Part shown: in pieces, positions 3,106 to 43,367 of the stretch
Layout: each line of letters opens with the position of its first letter
How positions within the stretch are numbered: position 1 is the stretch's first letter
Assembly: GCA_018004935.1 (NCBI GenBank)
Contig: JAGNBF010000011.1
Location: 12,760 to 76,759 of the forward strand
Direction: 5' to 3'
DNA length: 64,000 nucleotides
From: Chloroflexota bacterium
GTDB taxonomy: Bacteria > Chloroflexota > Anaerolineae > Promineifilales > Promineifilaceae
Translations under genes and position numbers: made by a program
The notes under the pieces: model-generated
Databases searched by the model: none
What the model saw: only the letters and a program-made list of their open reading frames with translations
Told to the model about the DNA's origin: nothing

Positions 3106-3877
3106 TACCGGAAAGAAGAGAATCCGTCAAACAAGGTGCCAGCTATACTCATTTTGAACGGTAAGCATTTCGTTAATCCGTCTGCGGCCAAACCGCCGGG
3201 CACTAAGGGGATCGTTCAAAATTAAGTTGGGTGGCTCGGTCAGGAGACCGGCCAGAGCATAAGAAAGTATCCCCCACCCCTAACCCCGCCCCCAGGGGCG
3301 GGGAACTTTTCTAAGGGGCATTTTTCGGGGCGAATGCCCCGAAAAATGCCCCATTGGAATTCCCCCCTTCCCTCGGGAATCGGCAGGGGGGATGGGGTCA
3401 ATGAAGGCGTTACCCAATTAAAAATTTAATGAACAATCAGGCTATTCACTCTCTCGAGAAAACGGCAAACGGCAGGAGCAAACCAAAGGGAGAATTGCTG
3501 TGAAAACCTGTCAGGCCTTGATGAGTATACCCATAAATCGTGGAGCACAGACCTGGCCGGTTTCTAAAACCGTATGCGTTCAGTTATCCCGTCGGGTGGT
3601 CAAACCACCGGGCTAAATGTACCAGAGCTTTACGGGCTAAAACCCCAGGCCAACGGCCTTTGCAAGGATAGCCCGGTCGTTTTACGGCCAGGCGGGTCTG
3701 GTGGATGAATTTATATGACTGAACGGTTACCTAAAACCTGTCAGGTCTCCCACCAAACGTGGATATACCTGGCCTTGATCGAGGGCAATCACAAGGGTTG
3801 CCCTTACTTAAGGTGGCAATCCTCTGAATTCCCAAAGAGCCAAAACGATATTAGCCGCAATCCATTCCCTTAACACA
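3106..3877. repeat. Gene-free stretch filled with repeats
   Basis: I see no gene. About 3231-3262 is one copy of the GTGGCTCGGTCAGGAGACCG repeat. Positions about 3271-3415 are a GC-rich block with a perfect hairpin at 3315-3352 (17-bp arms, loop GAAT). Positions about 3500-3560 resemble 32430-32480 (GTATACCCATAAATCGTGG). About 3770-3850 is a partial copy of the GAATTCCCAAAGAGCC family, whose end lies 30 bp before the next gene. Any promoter for the ChbG-like gene must lie inside or just after these repeats. Confidence 0.65.
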
Positions 3878-34999: not shown

Positions 35000-35994
35000 T
35001 AAGTAAAGTATTTGTAACGGTAGGCGTTCAGTTCCCTGAGAAAAAGAGCCTTCCGAAGGTTTCTGCAAAGATGTTGACCAGTGGTACAAACCTTCGGAAG
35101 GCTGAATGGTTACTTGTAACGACTAAGGCTCTCGAGGGCTGAACTTGTCGAACCCTAAGCCTGTGCCTTCGGCAAGCTCAGGCAACAGGCTTAGGGTTCG
35201 CTCAAAATTAAGTTGGGTGGCGAGGACAACCACAAGGGTTGCCCCTGCATGGGGTGTCAACCCCCTGAACTCCCAAAGAACCAAAGTCATTATACCCAGC
35301 GCCCCATGTTGGGACAAAACAGAGGGCGCTAACCCTAATACAAGTTCCCGGAAGTTCGTAGCATGTTTTTGGTTCGTAGTAACTGCTTTTGTAGTTTAAA
35401 AAATTAATCAGGTAATGGAATCCCCCCACCCCTAACCCCGCCCCCAGGGTCGGGGGGTTTTTTAAGGTGGGCAAAATCGAGGGCTTCACCCCCCGATTTT
35501 GCCCACCGAGGGAGTTCCACGTTCCCGAAATCGAAAATCGTCAGGGGGATGAGTTGATTCGCCCTCCCACGGCGCTTTCCGGCGGGAAGGGAGAAACACC
35601 AGGCGTGCGGGTTATCGAGCGCGGCCGCGCTCGATAACCCGCACATGAGAAAGCTCCCCACCCCTGGGGGCGGGCTTAGGAGTGGGGGAAACCATATTAC
35701 CCGTCTGTTTTGGTTCAGGGGGCTGACACTGGAGGGGCTGGCCTTGTGCCTGCCCCGTGTGTGCAACCACAAGGGTTGCCCCCCACGAAACCCCAAAGAA
35801 CCACTGTTTTTTAATCAACAATGTCTCCCATTTTGCCCCCAGATAGTGAATTCTGACAAATGAGAAAACTCGTTGTAAGAAAACACACCAGCATAGCCAT
35901 AAATGTATTTATAACCAATACCGGGCAAAGCATCCGTCCAATATTGGGAAATCAGTCTGCCGTTATATTTCGTCTTAGTTAAGGAGAGAAATCT
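35000..35994. repeat. Repeat-dense gap before spoVS
   Basis: No gene seen. It contains CCTTCGGAAGG repeats (about 35040-35110), a CTTCGGCAAGCTCAGG repeat (about 35110-35210), a GAACTCCCAAAGAACC fragment ending at 35283, and two repeat-C blocks. The palindrome of the second (35606-35643) is perfect for 19 bp per arm and has GCGGCCGC as its centre. Another GGTTC...GAACC element lies at about 35709-35803, flanked by near-identical TCTGTTTT and ACTGTTTT. The last 150 bp before spoVS are repeat-free and should hold its promoter. Confidence 0.65.
35606..35643. repeat. 38-bp perfect palindrome centred on GCGGCCGC
   Basis: TGCGGGTTATCGAGCGCGG and its exact complement, with no loop. It is the only repeat-C copy whose 4-nt loop is replaced by the over-represented octamer, and one of very few intergenic copies of that octamer. 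Confidence 0.85.
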
Positions 35995-36303
35995 ATGCCC
36001 AAAGAAACTGAACTCAAGATCATCAAGGTTGCGGCCAAATCTCGCACGCCCTCTGTCGCCGGGGCTATTGCTGGTATTTTGCGAGAAGATGGTCGAGTGG
36101 AAATCCAGGCCATTGGTGCGATGGCGGTGAATCAGGCTCTCAAGGCGTTGGTAACGGCACGTAAATATCTATTGCAGGAAAATAAGGAACTCCTTTTTCA
36201 GCCCGTATTCATGGATACATCCATCAAAGGTAAAGACCGCACCGTTCTCCAGATCATTGTTGAAATTGTAACTACCCTTGAAAAAGGTTATGCTCTGGCA
36301 TAA
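35995..36303 (+). CDS. spoVS: SpoVS family protein
   Basis: 102 residues, slightly longer than the 86 of Bacillus SpoVS. ELKIIKVAAKSRTPSVAGAI, then RVEIQAIGAMAVNQALKAL and AR.YL match the Alba-like fold of the family. In Bacillus it affects septation and spore coat assembly, but the gene is widespread in non-spore-formers such as Thermus and Chloroflexi, where it is probably a nucleic-acid-binding regulator. GGAGAG lies eight bases before the ATG. No other sporulation gene is near. It has no GCGGCCGC copy. Confidence 0.93.
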   Translation: MPKETELKIIKVAAKSRTPSVAGAIAGILREDGRVEIQAIGAMAVNQALKALVTARKYLLQENKELLFQPVFMDTSIKGKDRTVLQIIVEIVTTLEKGYALA

Positions 36304-36420
36304 AAAGGCCGCGCCCCCCGACAGTGCCTCTCCAAAGTCCGATTTCTTAGCCTTGGCTTATACCAGTGATTGCTTTCCCCCGCCCCTAACCCCGCCCCCA
36401 GGGGCGGGGAACTTTTTTTT

Positions 36421-36460
36421 GTGTCATTTTTCGCGGGCATCCGCCCGCGAAAAATGACAC
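36421..36460. repeat. Repeat-C palindrome after spoVS
   Basis: 18-bp perfect arms GTGTCATTTTTCGCGGGC and complement, loop ATCC, following the GC-rich block at about 36380-36412. It may also terminate spoVS. Confidence 0.75.
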
Positions 36461-36481
36461 GAATGGGGCAGGCCAAATTGC

Positions 36482-36730
36482 CGTAATCCTCAATTTAACC
36501 AACGGTTAAAACCGTTGCCCGCCAAAAGCACACTCGAAAAATAGCCCACCCCGTAGCACAGCCTTTCAGGCTGTTCGCCCTACACATCCTGGATGGGGGC
36601 TGAGCTTTACCGAAGCCCGGCTCCGCCTATATAGAGAGCGCACAGCCTGGAAAGGCTGTGCTACGCTCAGTTGACCACCGGGCGGCCGCACCATTTTTAG
36701 ACGTTCAGGCCAAATTGAGAATTGCTGGAC
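36482..36730. repeat. ~250-bp repeat, left member of an inverted pair around the B12 locus
   Basis: Order of blocks: CTCAATTTAACCAACGG, ACTCGAAAAATAGCCC, CAGCCTTTCAGGCTGTTCGC, GAAGCCCGGCTCCGCC, ATAGAGAG, CACAGCCT...AGGCTGTGCTACG, CCATTTTTAGA, AAATTGAGAATTGCTGG. The same blocks occur in reverse complement at 42943-43197. Its two ends are inverted copies of CTCAATTT-type sequence, so it may itself be a mobile element. Confidence 0.75.
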
Positions 36731-36779
36731 GCTCTGATGAGCTTTTGCTACACTACAATCTAATTATATATTGCATATT

Positions 36780-36890
36780 GGTGGTGTCCTTTGCCCCGGA
36801 TGGCAGGACATAATGGCGAAACCGGTGTAAGTCCGGTACTGTCCCCGCAACTGTAAGTGGAACCGTCCACGAGTCAGGTCGCCCACCACC
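36780..36890 (+). ncRNA. Cobalamin riboswitch
   Basis: P1 is closed by GGTGGTG (36780-36786) and CACCACC (36884-36890). The conserved core reads ACCGGTGTAAGTCCGGTACT, then GTCCCCGCAACTGTAAGTGG, CCACGAGTCAGGTCGCCCAC, as in adenosylcobalamin/cobalamin riboswitches (CCGGTxxxAAxxCCGG, CCCGCxACTGTxA, GAGxCxGG.C). CCACGAG inside the core can pair with CTCGTGG just downstream (about 36908-36914), a likely expression-platform switch leading to the terminator at 36961. It should shut off the genes from 37082 when cobalamin is plentiful. Confidence 0.93.
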
Positions 36891-36960
36891 CTTATGGTTT
36901 TCTAGCTCTCGTGGGTAAGGGTTGGGAACGCTCAACAGGCTATTCCTCTGACGTTTCCTC

Positions 36961-36992
36961 AACCCGATGCTAATACGGCATCGGGTTTTTTT
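36961..36992 (+). terminator. Rho-independent terminator of the riboswitch leader
   Basis: 10-bp stem AACCCGATGC/GCATCGGGTT with loop TAATACG, followed directly by a T-run. It lies between the aptamer and the first gene, the expected place of a transcription attenuator. Confidence 0.9.
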
Positions 36993-37081
36993 GTCCCCTC
37001 CCTCATTTCAGCATCATCTTGTCAGTACCAATAGTCAGTGACCATTAACAAGGCCAATGATCAGCAAGGGGAAAATAAACA

Positions 37082-39250
37082 ATGTTAATAAGAATTAGTG
37101 GGTTGGTTTTCGTATTGGGTTTGTTTTTGGCCCTGGGGCGGGCCGAGGCGGCCGCGGCCGCAACCAACCAGCAACAGGCGGTCATCGCGGCCGCAAACTG
37201 GCTCATCACCACGCATCAAAATAGCGATGGTGGTTACACCAGTTTTAGCGCGGGAGCCGATATAGCCCCATCCGATATAGGCGGAACGTTAGATGTCATC
37301 CTCGCCCTCAGCAGTGCGGGTTATGATGTACGCCCCACTTATCCGGGCAAAAATGCCGGGCCGGTTGATTATCTCACCGCTAATGCCGATGCCTTACTGG
37401 CTTTTGCTCAGCAGGATGGTGGCTCCGCTGGTAAGCTGGTGCTGGGGCTACTGGCCGCCCAACAAGACCCCCGTGCTTTTGGTGGACAAGATTATGTGTC
37501 TGTATTGGCCGGTCTGCTTACCACCGAGGGAGATTACACAAGTAGTTCGCCCTATCAACAAGCGTTGGCCATGCTGGGGTTAAGCGCGGCCGCGGAACCC
37601 ATTCCCCCCTCCGCCCCGGCCTGGCTCATCAACCGGCAGGCCACCGAGGGGGATATAGCCGGTTCCTGGGATGACGGCTTCGGCACCAATGGCAACGCGG
37701 ATGCCACCGCCCTGAGCATCATGGCGCTTCTGGCCGCCGGTAATCCCACCACGGATCGGGCGGTGGTAGCGGCACGTGGTTTTCTGGCCCAGACACAAAC
37801 AGAAAGCGGGGGTTGGGAGTATGGCTCCGGCTTTGGCGCAAATATCAATAGCACGGCTCTTGTAGTACAGGCGTTAAAAGCATTGGGCGAAGATTATGAA
37901 AGCCCTAATAGCCCCTGGATACCCGCGGCCGCGACGCCCCTGGCTTATCTTTTACAAAATCAGGCCGAAAATGGGGCCTATCAAACTGACCTGGGGAATG
38001 GCCTGGTAGAGGATTTTTACGCTACCGTCCAGGCCTTACCCGCTCTGGCAGGTAAAAGCTGGCCCCTGGCCAGCCGGGTAACTGCCATGCAACAGGCCAT
38101 CTCTTGCCTGCAAACGTTACAAGACCCGGCTACCGGTGGCTGGGAAAATTTTGCTGGCTTTGGCGTAGATGCCGGGGGAACAGCACGGGCCATCCAGGCT
38201 CTGGTCGCCGCCGGTGAAGATCCAACCAGCGGACGGTGGACGGTGAATGGGATCAATGCCGTACAGGCATTAGAAAATCTGACCCCGGCTTATCTAGACG
38301 AGGGGCGGGGTGGCCGGGTAGGGACGGTAATGCAAGGGGTCGCGGCCGCGGGCGGCAATGTTACTGATTTCGCCGGACAAGATTTATTTGTCACCCTGAC
38401 CAGCCATTATTCGCCGACGGGCGCGTTGGATGACACCAGTTTTGGTGTTTTTGGACACAGCCGGGCCTTGCTGGGGGCGGTGCAGGCAGGCTACGGCATG
38501 GCCGAATTGACCCCCGGCTTAGATTTTCTGTTGGCCGCGGCCGCGGATAATGAGTGGGGCAGTCCCGATGTGAATGGTTTAGCCCTACAGGTGTTAGGCC
38601 CGTTAGCCTTGTCGTCACCGGAGATGGTCGCCCCTTTACGCCACAGTCAATTAGGGGATGGGGGCTGGGGATTCGATGTTAGTAATCCCAATACCACCTC
38701 CGAAGTGGTGCGGGGATTGGTGGCGGTAGACGTAAACCCGTTTAATCCGGTTTGGAGTGTAGTTATCAGTGGTTCCTTAATCGGCCCGGTTGAGGTGGTG
38801 CTGTCTACCCAGGGAGAAAATGGTTGTTGGCCTAATCTATATGGCCCAGGAGATGATCCTCTGACCACAACGGATGCTATTTTGTTGTTAGCGGCGCACC
38901 CCTCGCACTGGGGGGAAACGGGGTTTGCCAGCACCGAAACCAGCACCGAAACGATACCCCCAGTTGAGCCTCTGGCTACGCCTGAACCAACGGCTTATAG
39001 CGCGGCCGCGCCATCTGCCCCTCAACCAACAACGCCCCCCCTTGAATATATCGCCCCCACAACAGTGGTGGTTCTGCCTACAGTGGCCCCCACAACGGGT
39101 TATCCAGGCATACGAGATACGCCTACCCCTATTGGCGAAGTTATCGCGTCACCCACGGCCACAAATGGTGGGAGTATCTGGGTGTACGCAATCGTTTTAG
39201 TGCTGGTGGTAGCCGGACTAGGGGTATTCTTTACCCTGCGCCGCCGTTAG
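37082..39250 (+). CDS. Surface protein with prenyltransferase/squalene-cyclase-type repeats (transcobalamin alpha-domain-like)
   Basis: 722 residues. A signal peptide covers about 1-25 (ISGLVFVLGLFLALGRAEAA). From about 30 to 620 there are repeated alpha-hairpin motifs of the alpha6/alpha6 barrel type: WLITTHQNSDGGYTSF, WLINRQATEGDIAGSWDDGF, TQTESGGWEYGSGFG, LQTLQDPATGGWENFAGFG, SQLGDGGWGFDV, each followed by a 'TA.ai.AL.aaG' helix. A Thr/Pro linker, a membrane helix (about 695-715) and TLRRR anchor it. There is no catalytic DxDD of squalene cyclases. It stands directly behind the cobalamin riboswitch and before DUF4430 and ECF genes. I infer that it binds cobalamin or a corrinoid like the alpha domain of intrinsic factor. 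AAGGGG precedes the ATG. It holds nine GCGGCCGC copies. Confidence 0.85.
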   Translation: MLIRISGLVFVLGLFLALGRAEAAAAATNQQQAVIAAANWLITTHQNSDGGYTSFSAGADIAPSDIGGTLDVILALSSAGYDVRPTYPGKNAGPVDYLTANADALLAFAQQDGGSAGKLVLGLLAAQQDPRAFGGQDYVSVLAGLLTTEGDYTSSSPYQQALAMLGLSAAAEPIPPSAPAWLINRQATEGDIAGSWDDGFGTNGNADATALSIMALLAAGNPTTDRAVVAARGFLAQTQTESGGWEYGSGFGANINSTALVVQALKALGEDYESPNSPWIPAAATPLAYLLQNQAENGAYQTDLGNGLVEDFYATVQALPALAGKSWPLASRVTAMQQAISCLQTLQDPATGGWENFAGFGVDAGGTARAIQALVAAGEDPTSGRWTVNGINAVQALENLTPAYLDEGRGGRVGTVMQGVAAAGGNVTDFAGQDLFVTLTSHYSPTGALDDTSFGVFGHSRALLGAVQAGYGMAELTPGLDFLLAAAADNEWGSPDVNGLALQVLGPLALSSPEMVAPLRHSQLGDGGWGFDVSNPNTTSEVVRGLVAVDVNPFNPVWSVVISGSLIGPVEVVLSTQGENGCWPNLYGPGDDPLTTTDAILLLAAHPSHWGETGFASTETSTETIPPVEPLATPEPTAYSAAAPSAPQPTTPPLEYIAPTTVVVLPTVAPTTGYPGIRDTPTPIGEVIASPTATNGGSIWVYAIVLVLVVAGLGVFFTLRRR

Positions 39251-39986
39251 GAAAAGAAATTGGGGCATGGTTCGCAAGCTGTGCTTAACATTTTGTAGGA
39301 CGATTTGGTAAATCGTCCTACAAATTTGTGTAACCATTCAGCCTTCCAAAGGTTTGTACCTTTGAGCGGTTAGTTGACATAAACCTTCAGAAGGTTATTT
39401 ACCGATAAATTCTAATAAAGGCATCTTCTGTATCTTCTCAATAAAGGTAACCGTTTACTCATGAAATTGAGCTTTTCTCTGGTAACTATCCCTCACCCCC
39501 AGCCCCTGTCCCAAAGTGGGAGAGGAGAGTTGGTTCCCTCTCCCTGGGGAGAGGGTTAGGGTGAGGGGTTATATCGTTACAACTTTCGGAAGGCTGAACG
39601 CTTACCAATAAAGTGTGGTGAAGATGGTTGAGTTTGTCGCCACCAACCGCCTGCGACAGGCCCAGGCTACGTTTCCCCCGCAATATTGAGAAGAGACGAA
39701 TAAAGGGTTCTTGGGGATTTCAGGGGGTATGGGCAACCCTTGTGGTTGCCCTCGGCGGGCAGGCACAAGGCCAGCCCCTACAGGTAGCTACACCCCGCGA
39801 ATTCCGAAAGAACCATATATATGACTGAGTCTACGGCAAAAAGCCCGGTTTCTGACTAATCTAACCGTCGCTTCCCGAGAGAAAGAAACCGGGGTTTTAA
39901 CTGCTTTGATCTTTTTTCAGTGGAGTCATGACTAAACGCTTACCCGGTGTAGGAATAAGTTGTGACACCTGAATAGTTATTGATTC
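39251..39986. repeat. Repeat-filled gap inside the B12 locus
   Basis: Contains a TGTAGGACGATTT/AAATCGTCCTACA hairpin (39293-39321) after GGCATGGTTCGCAAG, a diverged copy of the 113-bp unit (about 39488-39600), a GGTTCTTGGGG...GAAAGAACC element (about 39711-39817) and a copy of the repeat at 4820-4930. No gene is seen. The gap splits what looks like one functional operon, so a second promoter is probably needed. Confidence 0.65.
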
Positions 39987-40097
39987 GGCTCTTTGGGAAT
40001 TCAGGGGGTTGACACCATATGTACGGGCTGACCTTGTGCCTGCCCGGTGTGGGGCAACCACAAGGGTTGCCCGTACCCCACGAAATCCCGAAGACCC
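39987..40097. mobile_element. MITE-like element (GGCTCTTTGGGAATTC ends, 8-bp target duplication)
   Basis: 111 bp with ends GGCTCTTTGGGAATTC and GAAATCCCGAAGACCC, flanked by the direct 8-bp duplication ATTGATTC (39979-39986 and 40098-40105). The inner part holds GGGCAACCACAAGGGTTGCCC, shared with many other copies in the window. It is not coding. Confidence 0.88.
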
Positions 40098-40157
40098 ATT
40101 GATTCAACTGAACAGTTGCCTTACCACGCTCAACGCTTGAGGATGTGTATCGTTATT

Positions 40158-40826
40158 ATGAAACAATCTATGGGGATTATCTGGCTTGTCATTTGGTTGA
40201 CCCTGCCGACTGCGGTATTGGCGCAAGAAGCGCATCGGGCGGGGGTAGTGATTGTGCATGAAGATGGTCTGGTGGAGACGGCCTGTGTCACTTTTTATGA
40301 GGATAACATTACGGGTGGCGAGTTGTTGAATCGAGCCGTTTTGTCGGTGGAACGAGATGCCACCGGGATAGGGGATCTGGTTTGCCGTATTGGTGAAAGC
40401 GGTTGCCCGGCCACGGATTGCCTCTGCCAATGTCAGGGGGGTGATGATTGTGTGTACTGGTCTTACTGGCATCAGGTGGATGGGCAATGGCAATATTCGC
40501 AGGCAGGAGCCAGCCTGTATCCGGTAGAAGATGGGGCAATTGATGGCTGGGTGTGGGGGCCAGGAGCGTCTGGCTCGGCGCCTGAGCCACCGGCTGTGAC
40601 GCTGGATGGGTTGTGTCTGGAGCCTACGGTGCTTCCTCCCACCGCTACCTGGCCTCCGGCAACGGCTTTAGCCAGCGCCCAGGGAACGGCAACCGCGGCC
40701 GCACCGCTCACGCCACAGCAGAACCCACATCCTTCAACCGCGGCCGCAACGGCCTGGACATACATGTTCTTTGTGGCGTTGTTGGTGGGGTTGATAGGGC
40801 TGGGACTGTGGCGGCGCAAGCGATAG
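40158..40826 (+). CDS. DUF4430 (transcobalamin beta-domain-like) surface protein
   Basis: 222 residues from ATG 40158, which gives the signal peptide MGIIWLVIWLTLPTAVLAQ; the ATG at 40143 would add five residues. The exported domain (about 25-135) reads GVVIVHEDGLVETACVTF, TGGELLNRA, then GCPATDCLCQCQGGDDCVYW, SYWHQVDGQWQYSQAGAS and GWVWGPG. The W.yw...g.W.yS..GaS......dG...GW.WG pattern and the Cys-rich loop fit DUF4430, the family of the C-terminal domain of transcobalamin and intrinsic factor. After a Pro/Ala/Thr linker, a membrane helix and LWRRKR anchor it. The stop is 7 bp before the ECF S gene. I infer it is the second half of a split cobalamin-capture protein. Confidence 0.85.
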   Translation: MKQSMGIIWLVIWLTLPTAVLAQEAHRAGVVIVHEDGLVETACVTFYEDNITGGELLNRAVLSVERDATGIGDLVCRIGESGCPATDCLCQCQGGDDCVYWSYWHQVDGQWQYSQAGASLYPVEDGAIDGWVWGPGASGSAPEPPAVTLDGLCLEPTVLPPTATWPPATALASAQGTATAAAPLTPQQNPHPSTAAATAWTYMFFVALLVGLIGLGLWRRKR

Positions 40827-40833
40827 GGGTGAT

Positions 40834-41700
40834 ATGAATTCAACTTTTGCGGCTCTTTACACGCGATTTTCCCCCTTTCCCTGGTCGGTGCGTTTACGGG
40901 TAACGCGCTGGCTTTCCGGGGCTATTTATGCCTTGAGTGGTGTAATTGGCGCGGCCGCGTTTCTCTATCCCTTTTTCTTACGGGCACAGGGGCAGGTATA
41001 CAATAGCGGCTCAACTCTAGTACTGACAACTGGTTTGCTCATGCTTTGTCTCCTGGTTCTGTTGTTAGAAATACAGGGGCAGGTCATCAGTGCCAAGTTG
41101 GTAGCGGCCTTGGGTCTGTTGGTGGCGGTGACAGCCATTTTACGTTTTGTGGATAATGCCGTACCCATTCCCGGTGGTTTCAGCCCCATTTTTGCGCCCA
41201 TTATCATGGCCGGTTACGTCTTTGGCCCTCGTTTTGGGTTCCTGATGGGGGTGATGACATTGCTGGTATCGGCCCTGATTACCGGTGGGGTTGGCCCCTG
41301 GTTACCGTATCAGATGTTTACGACAGGCTGGGTGGGTTTGACGGCGGGGTGGCTACCGCAGACAACGCGGCCGCGGGTGGCCCTCTTTTTACTGGCCCTA
41401 TTCGGGCTAGGTTGGGGGTTTCTCTTTGGTGTCATCATCAACCTGTATGCCTGGCCGTTTTGGATAGGCGAGGCAACCCTGAGTTGGCAACCGGGGAGTA
41501 CTCTGGCAACAATGGTGCATCATTACCTCACCTACTACACCCTCACCTCTCTGTGGTGGGATGTAATGGCCGCTCTGGGTAATGTGGCCCTCATTCTGCT
41601 TCTTGGTCAACCCGTCCTCAAGGCCCTTCGCCGCTTTCGGGATCGGTTTCAGTTTGAGCAGGAGGGGGAGCGGTTTGTCACGGGAAATCCCCACCCCTAA
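40834..41700 (+). CDS. ECF transporter S component, probably for cobalamin
   Basis: 288 residues with six or more membrane helices (about 25-48, 63-83, 88-108, 125-150, 155-180, 185-215, 245-265). GFSPIFAPIIMAGYVFGPRF and GFLMGVMTLLVSALITGGVG are typical S-component helices (ligand-binding subunits of energy-coupling-factor importers). The length and the riboswitch-controlled locus point to a cobalamin-specific S component of the CbrT sort; specificity is inferred from context. AGGGGTG overlaps the region just before the ATG. The EcfT gene follows 16 bp later. Confidence 0.87.
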   Translation: MNSTFAALYTRFSPFPWSVRLRVTRWLSGAIYALSGVIGAAAFLYPFFLRAQGQVYNSGSTLVLTTGLLMLCLLVLLLEIQGQVISAKLVAALGLLVAVTAILRFVDNAVPIPGGFSPIFAPIIMAGYVFGPRFGFLMGVMTLLVSALITGGVGPWLPYQMFTTGWVGLTAGWLPQTTRPRVALFLLALFGLGWGFLFGVIINLYAWPFWIGEATLSWQPGSTLATMVHHYLTYYTLTSLWWDVMAALGNVALILLLGQPVLKALRRFRDRFQFEQEGERFVTGNPHP

Positions 41701-41716
41701 CGCCATTCCTTACACG

Positions 41717-42733
41717 ATGCCTTCTTCATTTCTTCTGCCGCAGACCTGGTTGGTCTGGCTGATGACTTCAGCCAGTGTGGCGATTATGGCTCACAACCCG
41801 CTGTACAGCCTGCTCCTCCTGCTGGTGGGGCGAATGGTGTATCTGGGCACGCGGCCGCGGGGAGCTACCATTCCTTTCCGTTGGCTACGCCTGGGTGTGA
41901 TCATGTTGACCATTTCTACCGTGTTATATGGTCTTTCTCTGCATAGCGGCGACACCGTTTTGTTTCGCCTGCCGGGTTCATGGCCGCTGGTGGGTGGGCC
42001 AATTACAGGGGAAGCCATGATCTTGGGGGCCAGCAATGGTTTGCACCTGCTCACCTTGCTGGTCTTATTTGCTACTTTCAACCGGGCCGTGCCCTCTACT
42101 GATCTTATCCGCCTGACCCCCCGGGCTTTGCACCATTTGGGCATTGTGGTTTTGATTGCGCTGACTTATGTGCCCGAAACTCTGAACCAATGGCAACGGA
42201 TTCGTGAAGCACAGGCTATTCGTGGCTATGTGCCTAAAGGGTGGCGCGGCTGGCGGCCTCTGCTCCTGCCGTTGCTGGTGAGTGGCCTGGAGCGGGCGAT
42301 GGAAGTGGCTGAAGCGATGGTGGCTCGGGGTTATGGGGCCACGGCGAATCAAGGTCAACCGGTGGTGCGGCAAGGGGTAATGGTGATAGGACTTGCGGCC
42401 GCGTTTGTTGGCTGGCTCCTGTTTTTTGCCCAACCCTTGTGGGGAAGCCTGTTACTGCTGGCCGGGGTACTCCTGTTGCTCTGGTTACTGTGGCAGGCTG
42501 GACGTGATGTCCCTTTCACCCGTTATCAGGCTACATCCTGGCAACAAAACGATTTTTTGGTTATGGGCCTCTCTTGTTTACCCCTTCTGGCTCTTTTCTG
42601 GATCACCCCTACCAGCCTGACCTACTCCCCTTTTCCCCAGGTCGCCCTTCCCCCCTTCCATCCCCTTTTCGGAGCCAGCCTGCTGGCCTTTCTGGCCCCC
42701 TGGTTGAGCCATGACACCACCCCATCACCCTAA
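41717..42733 (+). CDS. ECF transporter transmembrane component EcfT (CbiQ family)
   Basis: 338 residues from ATG 41717; the frame extends upstream into the S-component gene but lacks family similarity there. Five or so helices, and the two coupling motifs of EcfT in the C-terminal half: REAQAIRGY and AEAMVARGYG, each with the Ala-Arg-Gly that docks on the ATPases. It couples ATP hydrolysis to the S component. The two EcfA ATPase genes that should accompany it are not in the window: the next gene is a P450, and the gap holds only repeats. Either the ATPases are encoded elsewhere or the cluster was broken by repeats. Confidence 0.87.
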   Translation: MPSSFLLPQTWLVWLMTSASVAIMAHNPLYSLLLLLVGRMVYLGTRPRGATIPFRWLRLGVIMLTISTVLYGLSLHSGDTVLFRLPGSWPLVGGPITGEAMILGASNGLHLLTLLVLFATFNRAVPSTDLIRLTPRALHHLGIVVLIALTYVPETLNQWQRIREAQAIRGYVPKGWRGWRPLLLPLLVSGLERAMEVAEAMVARGYGATANQGQPVVRQGVMVIGLAAAFVGWLLFFAQPLWGSLLLLAGVLLLLWLLWQAGRDVPFTRYQATSWQQNDFLVMGLSCLPLLALFWITPTSLTYSPFPQVALPPFHPLFGASLLAFLAPWLSHDTTPSP

Positions 42734-42942
42734 TAGTGCTTGTAGGGCATTGCTTAGGGTTCGCTCGTAAACAACTTTGGAGTTTGCTGTGGCCGGTCTC
42801 CTGACCGCGCCACCCAACTTAATTCCAAGTGAACCCTTAGTCGAATTTTCCCCACCCCTAACCCCGCCCCCCGGGGCGGGGAACTTTTTAAGGGCCGTTT
42901 TTCGCGGGCGAATGCCCGCGAAAAACGGCCCAATCTGTGTCT
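42734..42942. repeat. Repeats after ecfT
   Basis: GCTGTGGCCGGTCTCCTGAC (about 42783-42812) and a repeat-C block with the palindrome 42892-42931 (18-bp arms, loop GAAT). No gene is seen. Confidence 0.65.
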
Positions 42943-43197
42943 CTAAAAATGGAGAAGTCGCCCGGCGGTTTAACTGAGCATAGCACAGCCTGGAAAGGCT
43001 GTGCACTCTCTATACAGGCAGAGCCGGGCTTCGGCAAGCTCAGCCCTCGCGGACGTGTATCGTTACGCCCATTTTTTGTTTTCACGAGAGGGCGAACAGC
43101 CGGAAAGGCTGTTCTACGGGTTGGGCCATTTTTCGAGCGTGCTCCTGGAGTCCAACGGTTTTAGCCGTTGGCTAAATTGAGAATTGCTGGTGGTGCT
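42943..43197. repeat. ~250-bp repeat, right member of the inverted pair around the B12 locus
   Basis: Reverse-complement counterpart of 36482-36730, with the same blocks in the same order and roughly 70-80% identity by eye. It ends in TAAATTGAGAATTGCTGG, also present at 36712-36730. Confidence 0.72.
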
Positions 43198-43272
43198 TGT
43201 CGCTCTCTTTGCAAATGGGCGGGGGGTGATATACTGCCCTGTTTCATTTGACCCTTGTTAAACCTCTTTTGT

Positions 43273-43367
43273 GGCATGGTGCAAAAGTCGGCAAACTGTG
43301 CTTAACATTTTGTAGGATGATTTGGCAAATCGTCCTACAAATTTGTAAAGTTGGCCTGAACCATGCC
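43273..43367. mobile_element. MITE-like element (GGCATGGT ends, 8-bp target duplication) at the P450 start
   Basis: 95 bp with inverted ends GGCATGGT/ACCATGCC and a central hairpin (TGTAGGATGATTT region). It is flanked by TCTTTTGT twice (43265-43272 and 43368-43375). Its right end ACCATGCC contains the ATG of the longest P450 reading frame. Related sequence lies at 39268-39330, and another copy near 47858-48040 is itself interrupted. Confidence 0.88.

Follow-up and report, generated by a model that had tools for sequence, protein, structure and literature searches.

A probable split, transcobalamin-like corrinoid clamp encoded with an ECF importer in Chloroflexota

Importers of the ECF type are described as capturing their substrate by the membrane S component alone. 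In a stretch of 64,000 nucleotides from a Chloroflexota bacterium of the Promineifilaceae (contig JAGNBF010000011.1 of assembly GCA_018004935.1; here called the window), genes for an S component and for EcfT are preceded by a cobalamin riboswitch and by genes for two exported, membrane-anchored proteins, a double alpha/alpha toroid and a small beta protein here called D4 (Table 1). What would such an importer do with two proteins at the cell surface? The component families are already known, the surface protein families having been named by NCBI without a function. The answer favored here, and held to be probable, is that the cluster serves corrinoid uptake by means of a membrane-tethered, split transcobalamin-like clamp that feeds the ECF importer; corrinoid binding, a shared site, and hand-over to the S component are the parts of this reading that we infer.

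Table 1. Features of the cluster, with positions in the window.
Feature	Position	Strand	Evidence or remark
Cobalamin riboswitch aptamer (RF00174)	36765..36904	+	cmscan 68 bits, cut-off 31.5
Intrinsic-terminator-like hairpin followed by a T run	36961..36987	+	position 3' of the riboswitch
Secreted, tail-anchored double alpha/alpha toroid, SCO2321-like, no DxDD	37082..39250	+	Pfam SQHop_cyclase, NCBIfam NF053823
Repeat-rich spacer between toroid and D4 genes, 907 bp	39251..40157	.	relatives such as L102 lack it
Secreted, tail-anchored beta protein D4, SCO2322-like, Cys-rich insertion	40158..40826	+	NF040672, hhalign, AlphaFold, Foldseek
ECF transporter S component	40834..41700	+	PF07155 2e-11, PF12822 1e-8
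EcfT transmembrane component, CbiQ family	41717..42733	+	PF02361 6e-14

The initial annotation of this DNA placed a cobalamin riboswitch and a terminator ahead of the operon, and both were recovered. The aptamer passes the gathering threshold of the RF00174 covariance model by a wide margin and is the single match in a scan of the whole 8-Mb genome, giving a background of one riboswitch per 8 Mb. The downstream hairpin draws its weight from its position, one having been found against 0.6 expected in shuffled sequence, and it is probably the expression platform of the riboswitch. The source genome, 97% complete, contains neither CbiC nor CbiB/CobD, and lacking these two markers of corrinoid biosynthesis the bacterium apparently cannot make vitamin B12. 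About ten matches to B12-binding domains are nevertheless present, and imported corrinoid is therefore probably required.

D4, the second surface protein, had been described as an exported and anchored DUF4430 protein, a description that held for its export, its tail anchor and, by profile and fold comparison, its superfamily, but failed at the Pfam model itself. The protein comprises 222 residues with a signal peptide, a Thr/Pro-rich linker, and a C-terminal transmembrane tail; the PF14478 (DUF4430) model, with a cut-off of 23.8 bits, gave no match in it at E ≤ 1, and weak matches were obtained in two of 72 members of the D4 family (best 0.0025). Its nearest curated model is NCBIfam SCO2322 (NF040672; 4e-7, 30.5 bits), the curated cut-off of 85 bits not being reached. 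When compared profile to profile with hhalign, the D4 family matched the DUF4430 domains of other Chloroflexota at 93% probability (P 2e-7), against 0.1% for the reversed control, and the comparison was run again with another DUF4430 set that overlaps the first. Neither the D4 protein nor its profile retrieved anything relevant in plain HMM and PDB sequence searches, and a DUF4430 profile did not find transcobalamin by sequence, so that fold comparison was needed. An AlphaFold (AF2) model of D4 spanning window positions 40224-40622 (mean pLDDT 92.9, pTM 0.87) was searched with Foldseek against 350,542 PDB chains. All 19 confident matches were to 3u7z or to the beta domains of transcobalamin, haptocorrin, and intrinsic factor, which were also the only structures to reach a Foldseek probability of 1.00; the next match was a superantigen at an E-value of 0.087. 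Closest of all is 3u7z (RUMGNA_00854), titled a putative metal-binding protein, which we take to be a DUF4430 protein. Identity between D4 and the transcobalamin beta domain is about 12%. Judged from its predicted fold and its profile, D4 is a member of the DUF4430/transcobalamin beta-domain superfamily, and it is proposed to form the beta half of a corrinoid clamp. Cys residues are invariant in the D4 family, and the Cys-rich insertion is missing from the DUF4430 sequences compared; speculatively, it may form disulphides or contact the cobalt.

The layout had at first been put forward as a new one. It is not singular, since a sample of 120 genomes from the class has D4 homologues in 63, and Streptomyces has the same operon. 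Gene maps of the relatives associate toroid and D4 with EcfT, a fused double EcfA, and an S component, in either order, and in the nearest relatives (L102, L104, L108, L110, L113, and L155, for example) the genes run contiguously as toroid, D4, S, T, A, and adenosyltransferase. Among named loci whose sequence extends 2.5 kb or more upstream of D4, a recognizable toroid gene was present at 50 of 58, and two of the remaining eight gained one by the family HMM. A cobalamin-type riboswitch was found at every one of the 30 related Chloroflexota loci scanned for RNA families. At 28 of these it lies within 500 bp upstream of the toroid ORF (including L139, where the ORF call extends into the riboswitch) and at the two exceptions, L109 and L138, 2-4 kb upstream. 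At many loci a second D4 paralogue precedes the main one (e.g., L058/L128, L047, L073/L134, and L063/L142); several of these upstream paralogues have a PEP-CTERM-like tail (PF07589 matches), which suggests that two different anchoring routes may be in use. A molybdenum-cofactor riboswitch lies near one related operon (L147, positions 109-228).

Gene fusions among the relatives bear on how the parts may cooperate. D4 is fused to a toroid in L031, L032, L033, L037, L038, L051/L143, L168, and L176, and in the first three of these D4 and the S component share one ORF, so that all three parts are linked physically. These natural fusions support a joint action of D4, toroid, and S component. They also bear on the alternative that the ECF importer takes up corrinoid alone, in the manner of ECF-CbrT, with toroid and D4 as accessory proteins that deliver nothing to the S component and instead hold corrinoid at the surface, strip it from binders, or organize the envelope. 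ECF-CbrT does function without an extracellular binding protein (PMC5997447), and both window surface proteins are tail-anchored through long Thr/Pro-rich linkers, but the linkage with the importer is conserved, D4 and the S component are directly fused in some ORFs, and the D4 fold is specific to B12-carrier beta domains; purely accessory surface proteins are considered unlikely.

Set beside the operons of its relatives, the window appears in its gene order as a dispersed version of an arrangement that they keep compact. The spacer between toroid and D4 genes contains a terminator-like inverted repeat at 39292-39324, and with this long spacer and its hairpin, and with EcfA encoded elsewhere, the parts need not all be expressed together. 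Direct and inverted repeats, interspersed and common to several spacers, fill the intergenic regions 35000-36700, 39251-40157, and 42750-43350, for example a 56-nt element (39274, 43291) and a 52-nt element (35412, 36366, 42838). The palindrome GCGGCCGC is present in 85 copies in the window against 1.6 expected from dinucleotide shuffles, at positions that include 37148, 37154, 37187, 40695, and 41367; locus L096 carries it as well. There are 31 copies in 17 kb of contig C50 and about 10 per 10 kb in one genome of the same family (L045/L108); counts for a few other 8-bp GC-rich palindromes were close to zero. In being so highly iterated, GCGGCCGC resembles the HIP1 palindrome of cyanobacteria.

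The S component and EcfT had both been named in the initial annotation and were confirmed by their Pfam families; for EcfT the start given in Table 1 is more likely than one far upstream at 41582. No EcfA ATPase gene was found in or near the window cluster. An EcfA ortholog is encoded on contig C50 (G000:C50). It shares 58% identity with the EcfA encoded in the operon of a same-family genome (L055) and is followed by a cobalamin adenosyltransferase gene (PF01923, 4e-59); the unusual GCGGCCGC repeats common to both argue for C50 belonging to the genome of the window. An ECF transporter is thereby represented in full, by S and T in the window and by EcfA on C50. The source genome has two EcfT genes, one of them in the window; the second adjoins a single ATPase gene (G000:C159:2293-3794) and is possibly part of an importer for a metal or another vitamin. 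Could the window system itself import cobalt or some other metal ion, with D4 as a Cys-rich metal-binding protein? The title of 3u7z, the invariant Cys residues of D4, and the assignment of EcfT to a Pfam family, CbiQ, that is named after cobalt transport all point in that direction. Without CbiC and CbiB, however, the genome is probably unable to turn cobalt into corrinoid, so that importing metal alone would be of no use, the adenosyltransferase with which EcfA is paired is one for finished corrinoids, and no CbiM-type S component was matched in Pfam; a metal substrate is judged very improbable. The role in corrinoid uptake originally assigned to the cluster gains instead from the sole riboswitch of the genome, its persistence in relatives, the missing CbiC and CbiB, and the adenosyltransferase beside EcfA.

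The first surface protein had been described as an exported, anchored protein of squalene-cyclase type lacking the DxDD motif, and this description stands. Its ORF encodes 722 residues with matches to SQHop_cyclase_C (4e-11) and SQHop_cyclase_N (3e-10), an N-terminal signal peptide, a Thr/Pro-rich linker, and a C-terminal transmembrane tail. The two halves of the protein align with each other (29% identity, E 5e-9), which identifies it as two tandem toroids. The best curated match is NCBIfam SCO2321 (NF053823; 3.6e-28, 98.6 bits), below the curated cut-off of 300 bits, and by sequence the two window surface proteins appear to be remote relatives of the SCO2321 and SCO2322 families. A structure predicted for the natural D4-toroid fusion L143:5772-7013 (pLDDT 91.6, pTM 0.90), in which the domain order is the reverse of that in transcobalamin, has class II terpene cyclases as the best Foldseek matches of its toroid, with transcobalamin also significant but lower (2v3n, E 2.4e-4). 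An alpha/alpha toroid partner like that of the transcobalamin family is thus present by Pfam and by the model of this fusion homologue, although the matches are not specific to transcobalamin. The predicted toroid is compatible with the transcobalamin alpha domain, yet not specific to it, and it is proposed as the alpha half of the clamp. Equating the two surface proteins with the two transcobalamin domains was therefore borne out by Foldseek for the beta half, whereas the toroid matches terpene cyclases better. The idea that the toroid is a terpene cyclase- or prenyltransferase-like enzyme whose substrate or product is imported by D4 and the ECF transporter, with B12 control being indirect, draws on just these fold and Pfam matches, but it is least probable of all given that no toroid of the window protein or of 64 homologous ORFs carries the DxDD motif of squalene-hopene and class II terpene cyclases (the one DxDD, a DFDD, is in the N-terminal D4 part of a fusion), that the toroid is exported and anchored outside the cell, and that every related Chloroflexota locus scanned has the riboswitch.

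Regulation, gene set, the fold of D4, conserved linkage, fusions, and the two missing biosynthesis markers are all computed results; the favored reading, corrinoid uptake through a split clamp, would join them as follows. When the intracellular cobalamin coenzyme is low, the riboswitch, to judge from its family, would let transcription enter the operon. The double toroid and D4, exported and tethered, would capture corrinoid outside the cell, probably holding it between them as in animal transcobalamin, where both domains belong to one chain and the corrinoid is held between them. They would then hand the corrinoid to the S component, which together with EcfT and the double EcfA encoded elsewhere in the genome would carry it across the membrane, and the adenosyltransferase encoded beside EcfA would convert the imported corrinoid to coenzyme. 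If this is true, ECF importers can have a dedicated extracellular capture device, something normally thought absent, and a conserved extramembrane capture module would alter the general picture of these importers as well as provide a B12 route for many Chloroflexota and Streptomyces. It would also provide a testable function for bacterial DUF4430 proteins and for the NCBI families SCO2321 and SCO2322, offer a bacterial relative, perhaps an ancestor, of human intrinsic factor, haptocorrin, and transcobalamin, and suggest that many bacteria, too, use the human type of B12 clamp in pieces. The open-access literature searched, outside which most subscription journals lie, yielded no account of an ECF importer with a transcobalamin-like capture module. 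An "additional lipoprotein component of predicted cobalamin ECF transporter" figures in SEED/RAST annotation, and the gene linkage, though not the fold relation, may thus have been noticed before.

Among known families the SCO2321 and SCO2322 proteins of Actinomycetota provide the best curated matches, and in Streptomyces sp. SAT1 they are found in an operon of the order riboswitch, toroid protein, D4-type protein, EcfT, EcfA, and EcfS, followed by metE with a riboswitch of its own; in Streptomyces sp. NBC_01237 a D4-toroid fusion occupies the same place. The window differs in that its proteins score below the curated cut-offs and in having S before T where Streptomyces has T-A-S. Beside the operon in two Streptomyces loci lies a gene for a secreted protein of 470 residues (L200 2098-3510 and L199 2102-3514, both on the minus strand), in which a toroid is followed by a C-terminal DUF4430-like domain (hhalign P 9e-5, 59% probability), in transcobalamin order and with no evident membrane anchor; in L200 the gene stands behind a partial cobalamin riboswitch (3648-3723). 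BtuFCD and the Bacteroides proteins BtuG and BtuJ resemble the proposed system in that extracytoplasmic B12 capture feeds an importer, but the importers are not of the ECF type, and the proteins are of families other than toroid and D4, BtuJ being DUF4465 (PMC12751083). ECF-CbrT of Lactobacillus delbrueckii is likewise an ECF-type importer with an adenosyltransferase gene nearby, its S-component gene cluster including pduO (PMC5997447), whereas extracellular capture proteins are not described for it.

Bacterial DUF4430 proteins, RUMGNA_00854 among them, have the D4 fold in common with the window protein, with significant profile similarity, although the latter misses the Pfam model and no cobalamin riboswitch was found at the three DUF4430-type loci scanned (L187-L189). 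These belong to another Chloroflexota class, in which DUF4430 lipoproteins and toroid-DUF4430 fusions adjoin EcfT, EcfA, and EcfS. At L098, L100, and L182-L184 the DUF4430 protein gene directly precedes EcfT, and L101 encodes a single chain of 652 residues in which a true PF14478 domain comes after a toroid, the one-chain alpha-beta order of transcobalamin that the separate genes of the window do not have. A gene for a winged-helix-type regulator stands beside the toroid gene in L187 and L189, and the DUF4430 lipoproteins of this class carry an additional conserved C-terminal domain. A DUF4430 domain has been recognized in the C-terminal region of TCN proteins (PMC4350170). Kinship of the window proteins with the animal carriers, proposed at the outset, is supported by fold and by this DUF4430 bridge, without direct sequence similarity. 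That a widespread bacterial toroid-DUF4430 module for corrinoid capture, acting outside the cell at the front of ECF importers and represented in the window by a split form, is the ancestor of the animal B12 carriers, or has a direct ancestor in common with them, is suggested tentatively, at just short of an even chance. Like transcobalamin, haptocorrin, and intrinsic factor, the window system combines an alpha/alpha toroid with a D4-type beta fold, is extracellular, and is linked to B12; unlike them it consists of two separate membrane-anchored proteins, with a duplicated toroid, a Cys-rich insertion, and low sequence identity, and it would deliver its corrinoid to an ECF importer, whereas the animal carriers deliver theirs to an endocytic receptor.
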